Positions 29,692 to 37,033 of a stretch of DNA of 64,000 nucleotides are shown piece by piece. Every line of letters starts with the position of its first letter. The first letter of the stretch is position 1. Origin of the DNA: Psychroserpens sp. SPM9. Its GTDB lineage: Bacteria > Bacteroidota > Bacteroidia > Flavobacteriales > Flavobacteriaceae. Under the pieces are notes generated by a model that was not told where the DNA came from, searched no databases, and was given only the letters and a program-made list of their open reading frames with translations. The stretch covers positions 496,001-560,000 of the forward strand of contig NZ_JANZNR010000003.1 in assembly GCF_025153525.1 (NCBI RefSeq). Direction: 5' to 3'. The translations under genes and the position numbers were made by a program.

Positions 29692-30291
29692 TTACTTGAC
29701 AGCTCTCTGCTCCAAAATTTTTATTATGTCATTAATTTCAAAGCCTTTAGCTTGTAGTAAAATTAAATAATGAAATAACAAATCGGCACTTTCATTTAAA
29801 AATAAATCATCATTAGAATCTTTAGCTTCAATAACAACTTCCACTGCCTCCTCGCCTACTTTTTGAGCAATTTTATTAATGCCTTTTGCAAATAAAGATG
29901 CGACATAAGATGTGTCTTCAGCAGCATTATTTTTTCTATCAGCAATAATAGTTTCTAATGTTGTTAAAAAACCATAATCTCGAATATTATCTTCATTCCA
30001 GCAGGTATCAGATCCTTTGTGACATGTTGGTCCTTCAGGCGTTACTTTAATTAAAAGTGTGTCACTATCACAATCTAGTTTTATACTCACCAACTTAAGC
30101 ACATGTCCGCTCTCTTCACCTTTAGTCCATAAGCGTTGTTTTGTTCTGCTAAAAAATGTCACCAGTTGCGTTTCTAATGTTTTATTTAGCGCCTCTTGAT
30201 TCATATAACCCAACATCAATACCTTGTGTGTCGTTTCATCTTGAATAATTGCAGGAACAAGTCCGTTATTTTTAGTATAATCTATATTCAT
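29692..30291 (-). CDS. hisIE: Bifunctional phosphoribosyl-AMP cyclohydrolase / phosphoribosyl-ATP pyrophosphatase
   Basis: A 199-residue fusion. Residues 1-105 are HisI (MLGYMNQEALNKTL, WTKGEESGHVL, and the Zn ligands in DCDSDTLL and CHKGSDTCW), and residues 110-199 are HisE (a MazG-like helical fold with KVGEEAVEVVIEAK and DLLFHYLILLQAKG). It performs steps 2 and 3 of histidine synthesis. It is the last gene of the his operon, 49 bp after hisF. Confidence 0.96.
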   Translation of the reverse strand: MNIDYTKNNGLVPAIIQDETTHKVLMLGYMNQEALNKTLETQLVTFFSRTKQRLWTKGEESGHVLKLVSIKLDCDSDTLLIKVTPEGPTCHKGSDTCWNEDNIRDYGFLTTLETIIADRKNNAAEDTSYVASLFAKGINKIAQKVGEEAVEVVIEAKDSNDDLFLNESADLLFHYLILLQAKGFEINDIIKILEQRAVK

Positions 30292-30340
30292 AGGATCTAT
30301 TTTGATTATTACTACTGAAATGTCTTCAGTAAAAATCGAC

Positions 30341-31096
30341 TTAAAGCCGTATTTCTATATGCTGTTTTTTTAATTCTTTTTTTAAATCTATAATATCGAT
30401 TTCACCAAAGTGAAAAACACTGGCCGCCAAAGCAGCATCAGCTTTTCCAATTTTAAACGTGTCGATAAAATGCTGTATAGTTCCTGCGCCACCGGAAGCA
30501 ATTATTGGAATATTAACCGTTTCAGCCAGTTTTGCTAATGCTTCATTTGCGAAGCCTGATTTAGTTCCGTCGTTATTCATTGACGTAAATAAAATCTCTC
30601 CAGCACCTCTGCTTTCAACTTCTTTAGCCCAGTCAAATAAATAATGCTTCGTCGGAATTGTGCCACCAGCCAAATGCACCATCCACTCGTTATCAATTTG
30701 TTTGGCGTCGATAGCGACAACCACACATTGGCTTCCAAATTTATCGGCCAATTCATTGATAAGCTCTGGTCTTTTAATAGCGCTCGAATTGATTGAAACT
30801 TTATCGGCACCACAATGGAGTAAGTCGTCTACATCTTTAATTGAAGAAATGCCACCACCAACTGTAAATGGAATATTGACCTGTTCTGCCACTTTAAGTA
30901 CCATGTCATGCATGGTTTTTCGACCTTCTAGTGTTGCCGAAATATCTAAAAACACCAATTCGTCTGCACCAAGTCTGGCATACTGTTTGGCTAATTCTAC
31001 TGGATCACCAGCATCGCGTAAGTTTACAAAATTGACACCTTTTACAGTTCTGCCATTTTTGATGTCTAAACACGGAATAATACGTTTTGTAAGCAT
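30341..31096 (-). CDS. hisF: Imidazole glycerol phosphate synthase subunit HisF
   Basis: A 251-residue (beta/alpha)8 barrel. [14 protein letters not shown]-type start, then [20 protein letters not shown], and [13 protein letters not shown] mark HisF. The catalytic Asp residues are at CLDIKNG and VAIDAK. It is the cyclase of the HisF-HisH glutamine amidotransferase pair that makes imidazole glycerol phosphate and AICAR. It follows hisA with only 3 bp between. Confidence 0.97.
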
Positions 31097-31099
31097 AGC

Positions 31100-31816
31100 C
31101 TATGAATAAGTTTCTAAATCTCTCAAACTTATGTGACCTTCATAAAGTGCTTTGCCAATAATAGCAGCTTCACAGCCTAAATCTTCTAGAACATTAAGGT
31201 CATTTATAGAAGTTACGCCTCCAGAGGCAATTAGTTTAATATGTTTGGTCTCGCTTAAAATTCGTTTATACAAATCGAATGAAGGACCTTCGAGCATGCC
31301 ATCTTTAGCTATATCGGTACAAATAACATAATTAACGCCTTTTAATTCATAAGATTTTATAAAGGGAATGATGTTTATGTTACTAGCTTCTTGCCAGCCA
31401 CTTACTGCTATTTTTTCATCATTACAATCTGCTCCAAGGATAATTTTTGTGCCGCCATATTTTGAAATCCAACCTTCAAAAACGTTCGGATTTTTAACAG
31501 CAATACTTCCACCTGTAATTTGTTTTGCTCCAGAATTGAAGGCGATATGTAAATCTTCATCAGATTTTAAGCCGCCGCCAAAATCAATTTTAAGGTTTGT
31601 TTTAGATGTGATTTGCTCTAAAACTTTATAATTGACAATGTGTTGTGCTTTAGCTCCATCTAAATCCACTAGGTGCAAATATTGTATTCCTGCGCCTTCA
31701 AATTCTTTGGCAACTTCTATCGGATTTTCATTATATATGGTTTTGGTATTGTAGTCCCCTTGTGTGAGACGTACACATTTACCATCTATAATATCTATTG
31801 CGGGTATAATTCTCAT
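31100..31816 (-). CDS. hisA: Phosphoribosylformimino-5-aminoimidazole carboxamide ribotide isomerase
   Basis: A 238-residue barrel enzyme. [21 protein letters not shown] carries the first catalytic Asp, and [23 protein letters not shown] and [10 protein letters not shown] follow. It isomerises ProFAR to PRFAR, step 4 of the pathway. Its start overlaps the end of hisH by 4 bp (ATGA), indicating translational coupling. Confidence 0.97.
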
Positions 31817-32394
31817 AAATTTAAAAAGTTTTTTAATAGTCGTTCTCCTGCTAAACTGCTTTTCTCTGGATGAAATTGAACGCCATAAAAGTTATCACTT
31901 TTCAAGGCTGTGGAGTATTCAGATTCATAATGAGATGTGGCAATGGTTTCTTGACATATTTCAGCATAATAACTATGTACAAGATACATGAACTCTGCGT
32001 CATTAATGTTATGAAATAAATTTGATTTTAAATTGTGAATGGTATTCCATCCCATTTGCGGTACTTTAACGGCTTTAGAAAATCGTTTCACTTCCACATC
32101 AAAAATACCAAGTCCGTTTGTTTGACCTTCATCGCTATGGTTGCACATTAATTGCATCCCTAAACAGATGCCTAAAACGGGCTGTGTTAACTTTGGAATC
32201 AACCTGTCTAAACCGCTTTGTTTAAGCATATGCATTGCAGAACTCGCCTCACCAACACCAGGAAAGATAACTTTATCAGCGGCTTCTATCGCTTCCGGAT
32301 CCTTCGAAAGTTGAGCATCAACACCTAATCGTTTAAAAGCAAACTGGATACTTTTAATATTTCCGGCACCATAATTTATAATAACTGTTTTCAT
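31813..32394 (-). CDS. hisH: Imidazole glycerol phosphate synthase subunit HisH
   Basis: A 193-residue class I glutamine amidotransferase. [30 protein letters not shown], the nucleophile elbow GICLGMQLM, and the triad His in VQFHPEKSS are all present. It releases ammonia from glutamine for HisF. A TTG two codons upstream is open, but the ATG at 32394 is the normal start. Confidence 0.97.
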
Positions 32395-32403
32395 TGACAA
32401 TAT

Positions 32404-33537
32404 TTAGAGTACGCCTTTAGTACTAGGCAAAATCATTTTTTCCACATCGCGTTTAACGGCCATTTTTATAGCCTTTGCAAAAGCTTTAAATATAGCTTCA
32501 ATTTTGTGATGCTCATTGGTGCCTTCAGCTTTAATATTGAGATTGCATTTGGCACCATCGGTAAAGGATTTAAAAAAGTGATAAAACATTTCAGTGGGCA
32601 TTTTACCAATCATTTCACGTTTAAATTCAGCATCCCAAACCAACCAGTTTCGTCCACCAAAATCTATGGCAACCTGTGCAAAACAATCATCCATAGGCAA
32701 TGCGAATCCGTAGCGTTCAATTCCTAATTTATTACCCAATGTTGTAGCGAATACTTCACCAAGCGCAATAGCAGTATCTTCGATGGTGTGGTGTTCGTCA
32801 ACATCTAAGTCACCATCTACTTTAATCGCCAAATCTAGTTGTCCGTGACGCGCAATTTGGTCTAACATATGATCAAAAAAGGCAATTCCGGTATCTATAT
32901 TACTTTGACCTTTGCCATCTAGATTTACATCAATTTTAATTTTTGTTTCATTGGTATTTCGCTCAATACTTCCTGTTCTAGCATCCGTTTTTAAGAAGCT
33001 ATAAATCACTTCCCAATCGTTACTTTCTAGCGCGATAAATTTATCAAGAGTTTCACGCTTTACGGTGATTTCATCAGTCCCTAAATTGGTATTATCATTG
33101 ATAAAAATTCCTTTAGAACCAAGATTTTTAGCAAGTTCAATATCAGTTAATCGATCACCAATAACAAATGAATTTTCTAAATCGTATGCCGAAGAAAAAT
33201 ACTTGGTTAACAAGCCCGTATTTGGTTTGCGTGTTGGTGCATTATCTTTTGCAAATGTTCGGTCAATAAATTGTTCTTCAAAACTAATACCTTCGGCTTC
33301 AAAGGTTTTGATAATAAAATTGTGCACTGGCCAGAAGGTGTTCTCTGGATAAACCGAAGTTCCTAAACCATCCTGATTGGTAATCATAACGATTTCAAAA
33401 TCCAGTTCTTTAGCAATTTTGCTTAAATACTGAAAGACTTTTGGGTAGAATTCCAGTTTTTCAAATGCATCAATTTGCTCATCTGCTGGCTCTTTAATGA
33501 GTGTGCCGTCTCTATCTATAAATAATACTCGTTTCAT
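32404..33537 (-). CDS. hisB: Bifunctional histidinol-phosphatase / imidazoleglycerol-phosphate dehydratase
   Basis: A 377-residue HisB fusion. The N-terminal HAD phosphatase has [14 protein letters not shown] (nucleophile Asp and acid/base Asp) and [14 protein letters not shown]. The C-terminal half is the IGP dehydratase with [18 protein letters not shown] and [15 protein letters not shown] (metal-binding His). It performs steps 6 and 8. It lies 3 bp after hisC. Confidence 0.97.
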
Positions 33538-33539
33538 GA

Positions 33540-34604
33540 TTATGATAATGATTTTAATGCTGAAATTAATTTACTGTTTTCTTCTGGTGAACCGACTGTA
33601 AAACGCAAACAATTGTTGCATAAAGGCTGGTTGGTTCTGTTGCGTATAACCAAACCTTTAGATATTAACTCATCATATCGTTTGGTGGCATCGTCAACTT
33701 TAGCTAAAATAAAGTTTGCATCAGAAGGCTGAACACTTTTAATACAAGATATATTTTGTAAGGCTTCCATCAAGACCTTTCGTTGTTCTAAAATCTTTTG
33801 AATGTCTTCGGAAAGTGTTTGTGGTTTGCTTAAAAGTTCTAGGGCTTTTTGCTGCGTAAGCGTGTTAACATTGTATGGCGGTTTTATTCGGTTTAATACT
33901 GAAATAATAGCTTCAGAAGCATAACAAATTCCCAGTCGGATTCCTGCCATTCCATAAGCTTTGGATAAAGTTTGTATAACAATTAAATTTGAAAATTCAT
34001 CCAGTCTACGAATCCAACTTTCCTGATTTGAAAAGTCAATATAAGCTTCGTCTATAACCACAATACCATTAAAATTGGTCACTAATTTTTCGATGGTTTT
34101 AGCCTTAAAACTATTTGACGTCGGATTATTTGGCGAGCATAAAAACAAAATTTTAGTTGCTGTTGTAGCAGCCTTCAGAATCACATCAACTCTAGGTTCG
34201 AAATTCGCATCCAATTCAATTTTTTGAACAGCAATTGCATTTAGACTTGCTAACACCTCATACATGCCATAGGTTGGTGGCAAAGTGATAACCGAATCTT
34301 GGTTAGGTTCACAAAATGCTCTAAAGATTAAATCCAAAACTTCGTCACTTCCGTTTCCTAAAAGTAGTTGTTCTTCAGCAACCCTTTTTAAAGTGCTTAA
34401 ACGTGACTTTAGTTGTTTTTGTTGCGGATCAGGATAGCGATTTACACCATTGTCAAACGGATTCTCATTGGCATCTAAAAACACCATACCCTCTTCATTC
34501 TCTTTAAACTCATCTCGAGCCGAAGCATAAGGTTTTAGGGCTTTTATATTTGGTCTAATATAATCGTTTAGACTAAACTTAAACTTTAAGGTTTCGTTAT
34601 TCAT
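33540..34604 (-). CDS. hisC: Histidinol-phosphate aminotransferase
   Basis: A 354-residue fold type I PLP enzyme. [18 protein letters not shown] at the start, [38 protein letters not shown] and the PLP lysine in [14 protein letters not shown] are HisC marks. It makes histidinol phosphate (step 7). It is 7 bp downstream of hisD. Confidence 0.96.
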
Positions 34605-34611
34605 AACTCGA

Positions 34612-35898
34612 TTATTTTTTTAAATCGTTTAATCGCAATGTCACTGCATTTTTATGGGCTTGCAGCCCTTCTGCTTCGGCCATTAACTCAATGGTATTTC
34701 CAATATTTAAAATACCTTCTTTGGAAATCTTCTGAAACGTAATGCTCTTGGTAAAACTATCCAGGTTAACCCCAGAATAGGCTTTACTAAATCCGTTAGT
34801 AGGCAATGTATGATTGGTGCCAGACGCATAATCACCAGCACTTTCCGGAGTGTAATTCCCTATAAAAACCGAACCAGCATTTTCAATTTGATCGACATAA
34901 AAATCGTTATTATTTGTACATACGATTAAGTGTTCGGGGGCATATGCGTTAATCATTTTTAAAGCTACCACATCGGAATCTACATAAATAAGTTTTGAAT
35001 TATCGATTGCTTTTTGCGCGAAAGCCTTTCGTGGTAAGTTTTGAATTTGCGTTTCAACTTCTTCAGAAACCTTAGCGATTAGTGACTTTGAGGTTGAGAC
35101 TAAAATCACCTGGCTATCACTGCCATGTTCTGCCTGGCTTAGTAAATCTGATGCTACATAAGCCGCATTTGCAGAATCATCGGCAACGACGAGTAATTCA
35201 CTTGGGCCCGCAGGCATATCGATAGCAACCCCATATTTAGTGGCTAATTGTTTGGCAACTGTCACGTATTGGTTTCCGGGTCCGAAAATTTTATAGACCT
35301 TCGGTATCGCTGTGGTTCCAAAAGTTAATCCGGCAATAGCCTGAATACCTCCAACTTTAATGATTTTTGTAACGCCACATAATTGGGCTGCGTAGAGGAT
35401 TTCATTAGCAATTTTTCCTTCTCTGTTTGGTGGCGAACATAAAACAATCTCTTTACAACCTGCAATTTGAGCAGGCACAGCAAGCATTAAAACTGTAGAA
35501 AATAAAGGTGCTGTTCCGCCAGGAATATACAAACCTACTTTTTGTATCGGACGTTTATCTTGCCAACATTCAATTCCTACAGCAGTTTGAACACTTACAC
35601 GTTCTGTTTTTTGTGCACTGTGAAAAAGTTGTATGTTTTGTTTAGCTGTTTGAATGGCTTGTTTTAATTCTTCTGAAACCTGATTTGTTGCGTCTGCAAT
35701 TTCATTAGCGCTTACAATTACAGATTCTAAAGTTGCACCATCAAATAATTCGGTATACTTATTAATCGCTTTGTCGCCACTTCTTTCAACGTCACTAAAT
35801 ATTTGATTGACCGTATTTTCAATATTTTCTAGAGTCTGCGTTGGTCTTTTTAATAAGTCAGACCAGCTTGATGTTTTAGGATTTATGATTGTTTTCAT
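34612..35898 (-). CDS. hisD: Histidinol dehydrogenase
   Basis: A 428-residue zinc enzyme. VGLYIPGGTAPLFSTVLML, IFGPGNQYVTVAKQ, AGPSELLVVADD, QAEHGSDSQVIL and YAPEHLIV are HisD signatures, with Zn-binding residues in AEHG and the later EHL. It oxidises histidinol to histidine. The frame is open nine codons further upstream, but the ATG at 35898 shares one base with the hisG stop codon (TAATG), the usual coupled start. Confidence 0.97.
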   Translation of the reverse strand: MKTIINPKTSSWSDLLKRPTQTLENIENTVNQIFSDVERSGDKAINKYTELFDGATLESVIVSANEIADATNQVSEELKQAIQTAKQNIQLFHSAQKTERVSVQTAVGIECWQDKRPIQKVGLYIPGGTAPLFSTVLMLAVPAQIAGCKEIVLCSPPNREGKIANEILYAAQLCGVTKIIKVGGIQAIAGLTFGTTAIPKVYKIFGPGNQYVTVAKQLATKYGVAIDMPAGPSELLVVADDSANAAYVASDLLSQAEHGSDSQVILVSTSKSLIAKVSEEVETQIQNLPRKAFAQKAIDNSKLIYVDSDVVALKMINAYAPEHLIVCTNNNDFYVDQIENAGSVFIGNYTPESAGDYASGTNHTLPTNGFSKAYSGVNLDSFTKSITFQKISKEGILNIGNTIELMAEAEGLQAHKNAVTLRLNDLKK

Positions 35899-36755
35899 TA
35901 TAAAACCATGTTTTCGATTGGACATACTAAAATTCCTTCTGCGCCATTTAGCTTGAGTTCATCAATAATTTCCCAAAACTCATGCTTATTAATCACAGAG
36001 TGTAACGAGCTCCAGCCTTTTTTAGCAAGCGGCAAAATTGTGGGACTGTTCATTCCTGGTAAGATATTAACAATAGCTTCCAGCTTTTCGTCGGGTGCAT
36101 TTAGCAATACATATTTGCTCTGTCGGCCTCTTAATACCGATTGTAATCTAAATTGAAGTTTGTTTAATATTTGTTTGTTTTCCGAAGAAATTAAAGGCGA
36201 AACAGCTAAAACTGCTTCAGATTTCAATAAAACTTCCACCTCTTTTAATCCGTTTTTAAACAAGGTGCTACCGCTGGAAACAATATCAACAATGGCATCG
36301 GCCAACCCAATGTTTGGAGCAATTTCAACCGATCCGTTAATGATGTGTAATTTTGCATTCACTTGTTGCTCCTCTAAAAACTGACTGACAGTATTTGGGT
36401 ATGAGGTGGCAATTCGCTTGCCTTCAAGGTCTTTAATAGATGTATAGGTTTTTGATTTCGGAACAGCTACAGAAACTTTACAACTTGAAAATCCAAGTTT
36501 TTCAATGAATGAAATGCCTTGACCTTTTTCGACTAGAATATTTTCGCCAATGATAGCGGCATCAACAACACCGTCTTTTAAATACTGTGGAATATCGCCA
36601 TTTCTCAAATAGAAGACCTCTAAAGGAAAGTTTTTTGCTGAAGCTTTAAGTTGATCTTTTCCGTTATCGACTAAAATACCGACATCCTTTAGGATTTTCA
36701 TAGAGTCGTCGTATAGTCTTCCCGATTTTTGTACTGCAATTTTTAATTTACTCAT
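35898..36755 (-). CDS. hisG: ATP phosphoribosyltransferase (long form)
   Basis: A 285-residue HisG of the long type with a C-terminal ACT-like regulatory domain (about 210-285), the site of histidine feedback in the family. LKIAVQKSGRLYDDS, VDAAIIGENIL, and the PRPP loop DAIVDIVSSGSTLFKNGL are present. It performs step 1. It is the first structural gene of the operon, controlled by the leader peptide and terminator upstream. Confidence 0.97.
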   Translation of the reverse strand: MSKLKIAVQKSGRLYDDSMKILKDVGILVDNGKDQLKASAKNFPLEVFYLRNGDIPQYLKDGVVDAAIIGENILVEKGQGISFIEKLGFSSCKVSVAVPKSKTYTSIKDLEGKRIATSYPNTVSQFLEEQQVNAKLHIINGSVEIAPNIGLADAIVDIVSSGSTLFKNGLKEVEVLLKSEAVLAVSPLISSENKQILNKLQFRLQSVLRGRQSKYVLLNAPDEKLEAIVNILPGMNSPTILPLAKKGWSSLHSVINKHEFWEIIDELKLNGAEGILVCPIENMVL

Positions 36756-36814
36756 TGTGGTTTTATTGTGTTTGAGTAAATCGTTTTGGAGAAATTTCTT
36801 AAAGATGAAGAAAT

Positions 36815-36846
36815 AAAAAACCGTTTGATTTACTCAAACGGTTTTT
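36815..36846 (-). terminator. his operon attenuator (Rho-independent terminator in the leader)
   Basis: CCGTTTGA (36821-36828) pairs with TCAAACGG (36834-36841) around a 5-nt loop, extended by A-T pairs. On the minus strand it ends in TTTTTT and lies between the leader peptide and hisG. The segment CGTTTGAGT of its 5' arm is complementary to ACTCAAGCG in the leader peptide (36881-36889), which allows an antiterminator. Confidence 0.85.
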
Positions 36847-36874
36847 AAATATCTTGATTTTATTCAATACATTT

Positions 36875-36931
36875 TCAGCTCGCTTGAGTGCCAGTATGAA
36901 AATGATGATGATGTAATTGAATAAATGTCAT
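36875..36931 (-). CDS. hisL: his operon leader peptide with five His codons
   Basis: An 18-codon reading frame, MTFIQLHHHHFHTGTQAS, starting with ATG at 36931 and ending with TGA at 36875. Five of 18 residues are histidine, four of them consecutive (CAT CAT CAT CAT), as in attenuator leader peptides. It is 119 bp upstream of hisG, with the terminator at 36815-36846 between. Segment 36911-36925 pairs with 36859-36872 (14 bp, one bulge), and 36881-36889 pairs with the 5' arm of the terminator. Low charged His-tRNA should stall the ribosome on the His run, free the latter segment and prevent termination. Confidence 0.85.
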   Translation of the reverse strand: MTFIQLHHHHFHTGTQAS

Positions 36932-37033
36932 GTCTTTGTTTTGTCTTTACAAATATTGCAAATTAAAATTCAATAATCCTAATCTAATAATACGTTTTAT
37001 GAATTTATTAATATTAAGCCTTTAAATTAAGAA

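Follow-up and report, generated by a model that had tools for sequence, protein, structure and literature searches.

A putative ribosome-mediated his operon attenuator in Psychroserpens and its relatives, with a co-varying element between terminator and hisG

The his operon and its leader

The window analysed here is the whole 64,000-nucleotide stretch of Psychroserpens sp. SPM9 contig NZ_JANZNR010000003.1 (positions 496,001 to 560,000), and all coordinates are counted from its first letter. On its minus strand it carries a complete histidine operon; the closest named relatives belong to Psychroserpens, with a HisG identity of 89%. The operon and the features that we recognize upstream of it are as follows.

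36755 down to 29692, minus strand: complete his operon, hisG-D-C-B-H-A-F-IE
35898 to 36755, minus strand: hisG (TIGR00070), the first gene of the operon
29692 to 35925, minus strand: the remaining genes hisD, hisC, bifunctional hisB, hisH, hisA, hisF and hisIE
36950 to 36982, minus strand: predicted promoter of the Flavobacteria type, with a -33-like TTAGG at 36982-36978 and a -7-like AATATTTG at 36957-36950
36875 to 36931, minus strand: leader peptide ORF, MTFIQLHHHHFHTGTQAS followed by TGA, 18 codons, five of them His
36913 to 36902 and 36898 to 36896, minus strand: the His codons, four consecutive CAT and then a fifth
36912 to 36925, minus strand: S1, TTTATTCAATTACA, a pre-emptor strand within the leader ORF that is the partner of S3
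36881 to 36889, minus strand: S2, ACTCAAGCG, the antiterminator strand, situated in the final codons of the leader ORF
36859 to 36871, minus strand: S3, TGTATTGAATAAA, the partner of S1 when the ribosome is absent
36847 to 36874, minus strand: predicted small hairpin of S3 with the downstream TCAAGATATTT, nested in the antiterminator under a stalled ribosome
36815 to 36846, minus strand: intrinsic terminator, with 5' arm T5 (36846-36834), loop GUAAA, 3' arm T3 (36828-36816) and a U run at its end

The operon is thus preceded by a run of five His codons, and an intrinsic terminator with a predicted stem of 13 base pairs lies between the leader ORF and the first gene. Most of these parts had been named in the original prediction, which proposed a complete his attenuator at this place. 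The 18-codon minus-strand frame at 36931-36875, with its four consecutive CAT codons and one more, was located again, as was the complementarity of S1 and S3, which runs from 36925-36912 against 36871-36859 with one bulged U. The predicted pairing of 36881-36889 with the 5' arm of the terminator is likewise present, the partner of S2 being CGTTTGAGT with one G-U, and the terminator and its T run lie before hisG at 36815-36846. All parts named there exist, but the picture was incomplete because it omitted a further element, D, which lies between the terminator and hisG and is described below.

The predicted promoter would place the start of transcription near 36945, upstream of the leader ORF, and not downstream of 36931, where a start would have told against a leader peptide. 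A motif of the form TT[TA]G-N16-22-NANNTTTG is found 5' of the leader ORF in 142 of 203 aligned regions, as against 0.8% of shuffled sequences; the -7 consensus given for Flavobacteria is TAnnTTTG (PMC9723704).

Conservation among relatives

We compared two sets of sequences. The near-relative set holds hisG upstream regions from 22 of 23 genus genomes (those with hisG) and from the best 80 of 556 relatives, with HisG proteins 77-89% identical; its 102 loci comprise 94 distinct regions. The wider set of 203 rows derives from 216 gathered regions, of which 204 were distinct and one (L140) was left unparsed. Excluded beforehand were L108 (start misparsed), L114 (the window again, identical to L019), L124 and L153 (no hisG found), L151, L152 and L154 (another architecture) and L165-L181.

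Relatives devoid of His leaders or of the pairings would have spoken against the original prediction, and what we find is that both the His run and the pairings are kept. All 94 distinct near-relative regions have a His leader ahead of hisG, and in all 102 loci the leader ORF begins with ATG and has 16-18 codons with 3-6 His codons. In the window, the folding of the leader is more stable than that of all 200 dinucleotide shuffles (z -4.96). Across the 94-row alignment, S1:S3 and the terminator together give a covariation score of 0.120 (0.069 when shuffled, with 0 of 500 shuffles reaching the observed value), and 99.7% of terminator cells are paired. The expectation of conserved His runs and covarying stems is therefore borne out for the His run, for S1:S3 and for the terminator, but not for S2:T5, which shows no covariation in the 94 rows because this pairing is nearly invariant (94.9% of cells paired).

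The wider set holds more variation in this pairing. T5 reads GTCTGA in 13 of 203 rows, and the S2 base that faces the C is G in all of them, 12 being scored by script and the last one (L148) by eye; among the 189 rows with GTTTGA, S2 contains CAAGC in 145. This base has changed at least twice on the hisG tree (182 rows). A further two-sided change in the antiterminator is seen in L147, where T5 is CTGTCTGA and S2 is TCAGGCAA, such that a U-A pair replaces the usual C-G.

The codons of the leader also bear on what is being conserved. His-rich peptides are able to bind metals, and one could suppose that the leader product is itself a regulatory or structural peptide, for example a metal-binding one, with the RNA structures incidental. 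In the QA motif at the end of the leader (absent from 12 of 203 rows), however, the Ala codon is GCG in 184 of 191 motif-bearing leaders, whereas GCG accounts for 182 of the 1985 Ala codons found over the first 450 nt of hisG. The stop is shifted ahead of the QA codons in L197 and L221, and the frame itself is shifted in L250, yet the letters of S2 are kept in all three, with one change in L221. The GCG bias and the retention of S2 in shortened and shifted leaders argue that the end of the leader is conserved as RNA and not as peptide. The His count, moreover, ranges from 3 to 6, and the leader adjoins hisG in all but one of 110 family loci (the exception, L124, lies near a contig end), so we regard a functional peptide as hardly credible. 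The His codons are themselves CAT in 835 of 882 cases in the leaders and in 137 of 298 cases in hisG.

Distribution in the family and the class

A covariance model of the leader, R1, matches 181 of 199 family genomes and 180 of 198 genera (E up to 0.001). Of the 18 genomes that it misses, 16 are without hisG; in the remaining two (L165, L166), hisG is preceded by a His leader whose sequence differs. hisG lies just downstream in 29 of 30 R1 model loci and in 80 of 80 further family loci inspected, some other matches being weak; the exception among the 30 is L124, a short stretch near a contig end. One genome (G142) has two strong R1 matches, on contigs C126 (23073) and C81 (9276), and one of these, L124, is without hisG in its stretch.

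In a sample of the class, R1 matches 48 of 247 genomes, 9 of them Flavobacteriaceae, and the weak matches among these are a mixture, so that the figure of 48 should not be read as the number of his leaders. hisG was found in 18 of 29 loci from this search, and the 11 without it all have E values of 1.2e-5 or worse. Some weak matches are nevertheless linked to hisG, among them L154 (E 1.7e-5) and two that lie within about 200 nt before the gene, in G242 (E 2e-4) and G306 (E 5e-4). Good matches reach other families (L143, L144, L146-L150), where HisG is 54-62% identical. In one other family, L151, L152 and L154 have by eye a like architecture in unrelated letters, and the D element is not visible in these three loci; in L151, S2 aggcgggcc stands against T5 ggcttgcct.

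Among 40 class genomes with no match or a weak one, 14 have hisG, and in 13 of these 14 a His-rich short ORF lies upstream by a filter used without a shuffle control, which called for at least 3 His in at most 40 codons within 300 nt. The class-level leaders L167-L180 were picked by this filter, and for L168, L170 and L174 it is unsettled where hisG begins. The leaders in other families, together with those in 13 of the 14 unmatched hisG genomes, suggest that his attenuators look common in the class, with turnover of their sequences.

Folding as a function of ribosome position

We propose the following mechanism. When charged tRNA-His is short, a ribosome would stall on the His run and cover S1, and S2, left free by the stalling, would pair with the emerging 5' arm of the terminator, so that the polymerase reads through. 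With sufficient histidine, the ribosome would get to the stop codon and cover S2, and the terminator would form. With no ribosome, S1:S3 would tend to trap S2 in a loop, and again the terminator would form. These are the three states of the original prediction, and we folded them with the relevant segments blocked, using RNA that extends through the terminator loop with the 3' arm absent and with an approximate ribosome footprint.

In the window RNA, S2:T5 forms with the ribosome on His1, His2 or His4 and does not form with the ribosome on His5 or on the leader stop; without a ribosome, S1:S3 forms. Over the 203 rows, S2:T5 forms in 202 when everything up to a ribosome on His2 is blocked and in 5 when the ribosome is at the leader stop; a control with shuffled tails gives 352 of 1015. 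In these folds, then, the strand of the antiterminator, a structure that excludes the terminator, is freed by stalling and is covered at the stop. The stalled and stop states thus behave as had been proposed. The state without a ribosome does so in the window and is less clean in the 203 rows, where S1:S3 forms with at least 6 pairs in 123 and S2:T5 forms nonetheless in 72. We conclude that the predicted His-codon logic is robust, and that the protective role predicted for S1:S3 is only partly robust.

When the 3' arm is included, the terminator is the minimum-energy fold of the window RNA in every state tried, which means that read-through must depend on the timing and order of events. The predicted hairpin of S3 with TCAAGATATTT may serve as a pause hairpin. 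As a whole, the proposed attenuation steps are supported by comparison and by folding.

A co-varying element downstream of the terminator

The element that the earlier picture lacked is complementary to part of the terminator itself.

36770 to 36782, minus strand: D, GATTTACTCAAAC, 13 nt, past the terminator, with 14 nt separating it from the hisG start
36827 to 36839, minus strand: T segment, GTTTGAGTAAATC, the partner of D, made up of the loop and a portion of the terminator 5' arm

D is a perfect complement of T, and in this genome it is also complementary to the start of hisG (TGAGTAAAT). Shuffling of the 59-nt interval between the terminator and hisG reaches 13 of 13 pairs in 2 of 40000 trials. 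In the 94 near-relative rows, each region's own T:D duplex has a mean energy of -15.8 kcal/mol, as opposed to -12.0 when partners are swapped among regions (z -15.4), a signal that exceeds those of S1:S3 (z -3.8) and S2:T (z -3.9). In the wider set, T and D pair at 12 or 13 of the 13 positions in 133 of 203 rows versus 0.3% of shuffles, and the mean number of pairs is 11.72 for own partners and 10.37 for swapped ones (z 20). The pairing is weak, with at most 9 of 13 pairs, in 21 of the 203 rows.

The loop positions show how closely the two strands follow each other. At one of them, the 203 rows comprise 78 T-A, 66 A-T, 27 C-G, 10 T-G and 22 mismatched or rare combinations. With D anchored on the core alone (n=148, leaving out 48 rows as ambiguous and 7 as unanchored), an average of 4.31 of the five loop positions pair with the own partner and 2.94 with a swapped one. 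Counts on the tree (FastTree, about 480 nt of hisG) were restricted to independent pairs across supported branches, taking A/T contrasts at loop positions 7-10: D follows T about 10.5 times, opposes it 0.2 times and stays unchanged about 12.4 times. No single position is significant in these pairs, there being too few per position, and position 11 yields nothing; tree counts on well-pairing rows are biased, and the core-anchored test is to be preferred. Selection on the T:D pairing is on this evidence well supported.

Taken together, we hold at a probability of about 0.9 that the leader is a ribosome-mediated attenuator of the his operon and that it is accompanied by an element, D, complementary to T5 and the loop, whose pairing is under selection.

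Of the 156 rows with at least 11 pairs, 133 have D ending at a distance of 11-25 nt from hisG, and in 23 of the 94 near-relative rows it lies 28-49 nt away. We considered whether its spacing is held more tightly to hisG than to the terminator: the interquartile range is 15-20 for the distance to hisG and 14-24 for that to the T run, but the standard deviations (8.8 and 7.4) say otherwise, and this disagreement means that the spacing is not decisive. Several relatives (e.g. L048, L057, L043) have palindromes such as attcctg...caggaat between the terminator and D, and some have other small hairpins between D and hisG.

What the D element may do

Since D is transcribed after the termination decision has been made, it can act in cis only in read-through RNA. 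S2:T5 leaves the loop open to D, and the terminator hairpin hides the 5' arm, from which we infer a role in translation. Free D would tend to pair with the hisG start region and lock it. In antiterminated RNA, the 5' arm and the open loop would draw D away and expose the hisG start; in leaky RNA that carries the terminator hairpin, the 5' arm would be trapped and D would remain on the start. This translational lock is a tentative proposal, to which we give rather less than even odds. The same modest odds apply to its corollary, that T5 and the loop are contested by S2, T3 and D, such that one decision by a stalled ribosome would govern operon transcription together with hisG translation. If it is true, the mRNA would remember its antitermination, and hisG would be unlocked only where the terminator had never formed.

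The folding predictions bear on this lock in both directions. The unpaired probability of the hisG start rises from 0.45 when D is free to 0.66 when it is masked and 0.60 when it is shuffled (156 rows, which are not independent), and in the window it is 0.35 with D free as against 0.69 with D masked; in some loop groups, D has no effect on the predicted openness of the start. The pairing of D with the start barely co-varies, with 7.20 own and 7.16 swapped pairs in a fixed register (z 1.0) and a duplex-energy z of -5.2 (182 rows). When the stretch from terminator to hisG is folded in isolation (156 rows with at least 11 T:D pairs), the minimum-energy structure pairs the 5' arm with T3 in preference to D in 125 rows; for the full leader of the window, T:D appears in the minimum-energy fold but the terminator in the centroid. 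We also considered T as a mimic of the hisG start, the match being complete (9 of 9 positions) for 43 of 182 rows. Swapped partners do nearly as well (6.79, own 6.92), so that most of the resemblance can be put down to descent and to a hisG start that is fixed, and we rejected this idea.

The T:D helix could itself be the repressing structure, forming in leaky read-through RNA under histidine sufficiency and hindering 30S loading before hisG; this is opposite in sign to the lock. The position of D, close before hisG in most well-pairing rows, and the T:D minimum-energy state of the full window leader fit such a role. The helix, however, usually ends some 15-20 nt short of the start codon (by quartiles) and leaves the start region open, and the start is predicted to be more accessible when D is masked, which together make repression by the helix rather unlikely. 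A plainer role, in which T:D merely opens the terminator hairpin in the finished mRNA and serves its stability, its processing or the passage of ribosomes with no regulation, would suit an element that appears in the RNA once termination has been decided and whose partner is the very strand that builds the terminator. The narrower interquartile range of D's distance to hisG is a weak point against it, weakened further by the larger standard deviation, and we consider this role unlikely.

The T segment is complete in the terminated leader RNA, where the loop is exposed, and that RNA could act in trans as an attenuator-derived small RNA whose terminator loop pairs with the D of a read-through his mRNA. 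Covariation of T and D fits action in cis and in trans equally; the cis pairing is intramolecular and should for that reason be favoured, and we judge action in trans to be quite improbable. As an inverted repeat in the DNA, T and D could also be the half-sites of an operator or loop for a repressor, with no RNA pairing involved. Against this, the distance from the T run to D varies from 0 to 41 nt, and T and D drift in step instead of holding to one consensus. An excess of G-U pairs had looked like a strong sign of RNA but proved to be partly an artefact of anchoring; the five unanchored loop positions give 48 G-U pairs and 17 A-C mismatches in 740 cells, a modest lean towards RNA. A DNA operator is thus highly improbable.

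Relation to known attenuators

No Rfam family reaches its cut-off on the window, and a search of the leader at E up to 10 gives 18 weak matches, none of them near cut-off. Rfam His_leader (hisL), which we take to be RF00514, has no match in the window at its gathering score and is not among these 18, and no T-box riboswitch is matched in the window or, at E up to 10, in the leader. The best leader match, to a plastid 3' UTR motif (RF04347; E 0.0007, 29 bits of 51.5), falls on the terminator hairpin and is taken as chance; trpB (RF04312) gives a weak leader match of 20 bits of 59. In Bacillus subtilis, the read-through transcript of trpE under TRAP is likewise also shut translationally, by structure near the first gene, but the sensor there is a protein and not a ribosome, and the pairing logic differs from that of the his leader described here.

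The likeness to enterobacterial hisL, as described in the available passages of PMC9413887, lies in the run of His codons in a short leader ORF, in ribosome position as the sensor, in the his operon as the target and in the mutual exclusion of antiterminator and terminator. In contrast to hisL, the leader here has its antiterminator strand within the 18-codon ORF and carries D in the interval from terminator to hisG. The same passages describe His attenuators of the Firmicutes, with 3-5 consecutive His codons and a terminator and antiterminator before his operons; in that other phylum, termination is replaced in some attenuators by sequestration of the ribosome binding site, the two not being combined (PMC9413887). 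Bacteria of the group studied here are said not to rely on Shine-Dalgarno sequences (PMC9723704).

Closest to our locus is a structured element 5' of hisG in Flavobacterium psychrophilum, found in other genera too and without an Rfam match, from a study whose available text also reports strong clues to leader-peptide attenuation before amino-acid operons in Flavobacterium (PMC9723704). It shares with the present leader the family Flavobacteriaceae, the position upstream of hisG and the lack of an Rfam match; section 19 of that paper treats it without sequence, structure, pairing test or D, and its supplement may contain a drawing of the hisG leader. Bacteroid-trp RNA (RF01692), likewise a candidate cis-regulatory RNA of Bacteroidetes and by its name suggestive of a trp leader (PMC2864571, in the part available), has no match in the window. 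Leader-like small ORFs are known in Bacteroides thetaiotaomicron, histidine going unmentioned in the accessible passages (PMC7366714), and a paper on the his genes of the phylum mentions attenuation for S. enterica and E. coli, the word leader being absent from its available text (PMC8305728). In the titles, abstract openings and passages covered (including PMC4833913 and PMC2864571, with subscription papers mostly outside), we found no description of D or of this architecture. As far as that literature extends, the D element is new here; a conserved structured hisG 5' element, and leader-peptide attenuation as a proposal for Flavobacterium, were already in print (PMC9723704).

Our data support classical ribosome-mediated his attenuation as the rule in histidine-making Flavobacteriaceae, and suggest that it extends to other families of the class, in some with unrelated leader sequences. 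With the co-varying D, the idea of a dual attenuator of transcription and translation becomes open to direct test, and a new RNA family, absent from Rfam, could be built from the alignment.

Other attenuators in the same genome

Leader-peptide attenuation seems, from sequence, to be general in this organism. A trpE leader, MNTNLNHTWWWNSRNNNFVN, and a pheA leader, MNTLNHTYYNWFYFFFSEKRETLYV, both have a terminator behind them, no more than about 15 nt from the gene, the gene names resting on the Pfam families searched and on ORF positions; by eye, ilvD of the same genome has no clear leader. The trpE and pheA terminators leave no room for D, so D is not a general part of the attenuators here. 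The leader ORFs before the trpE-like and pheA-like genes (L265, G000:C39 near 77208; L262, G000:C11 near 111513) bear WWW and are rich in Tyr and Phe, in that order.
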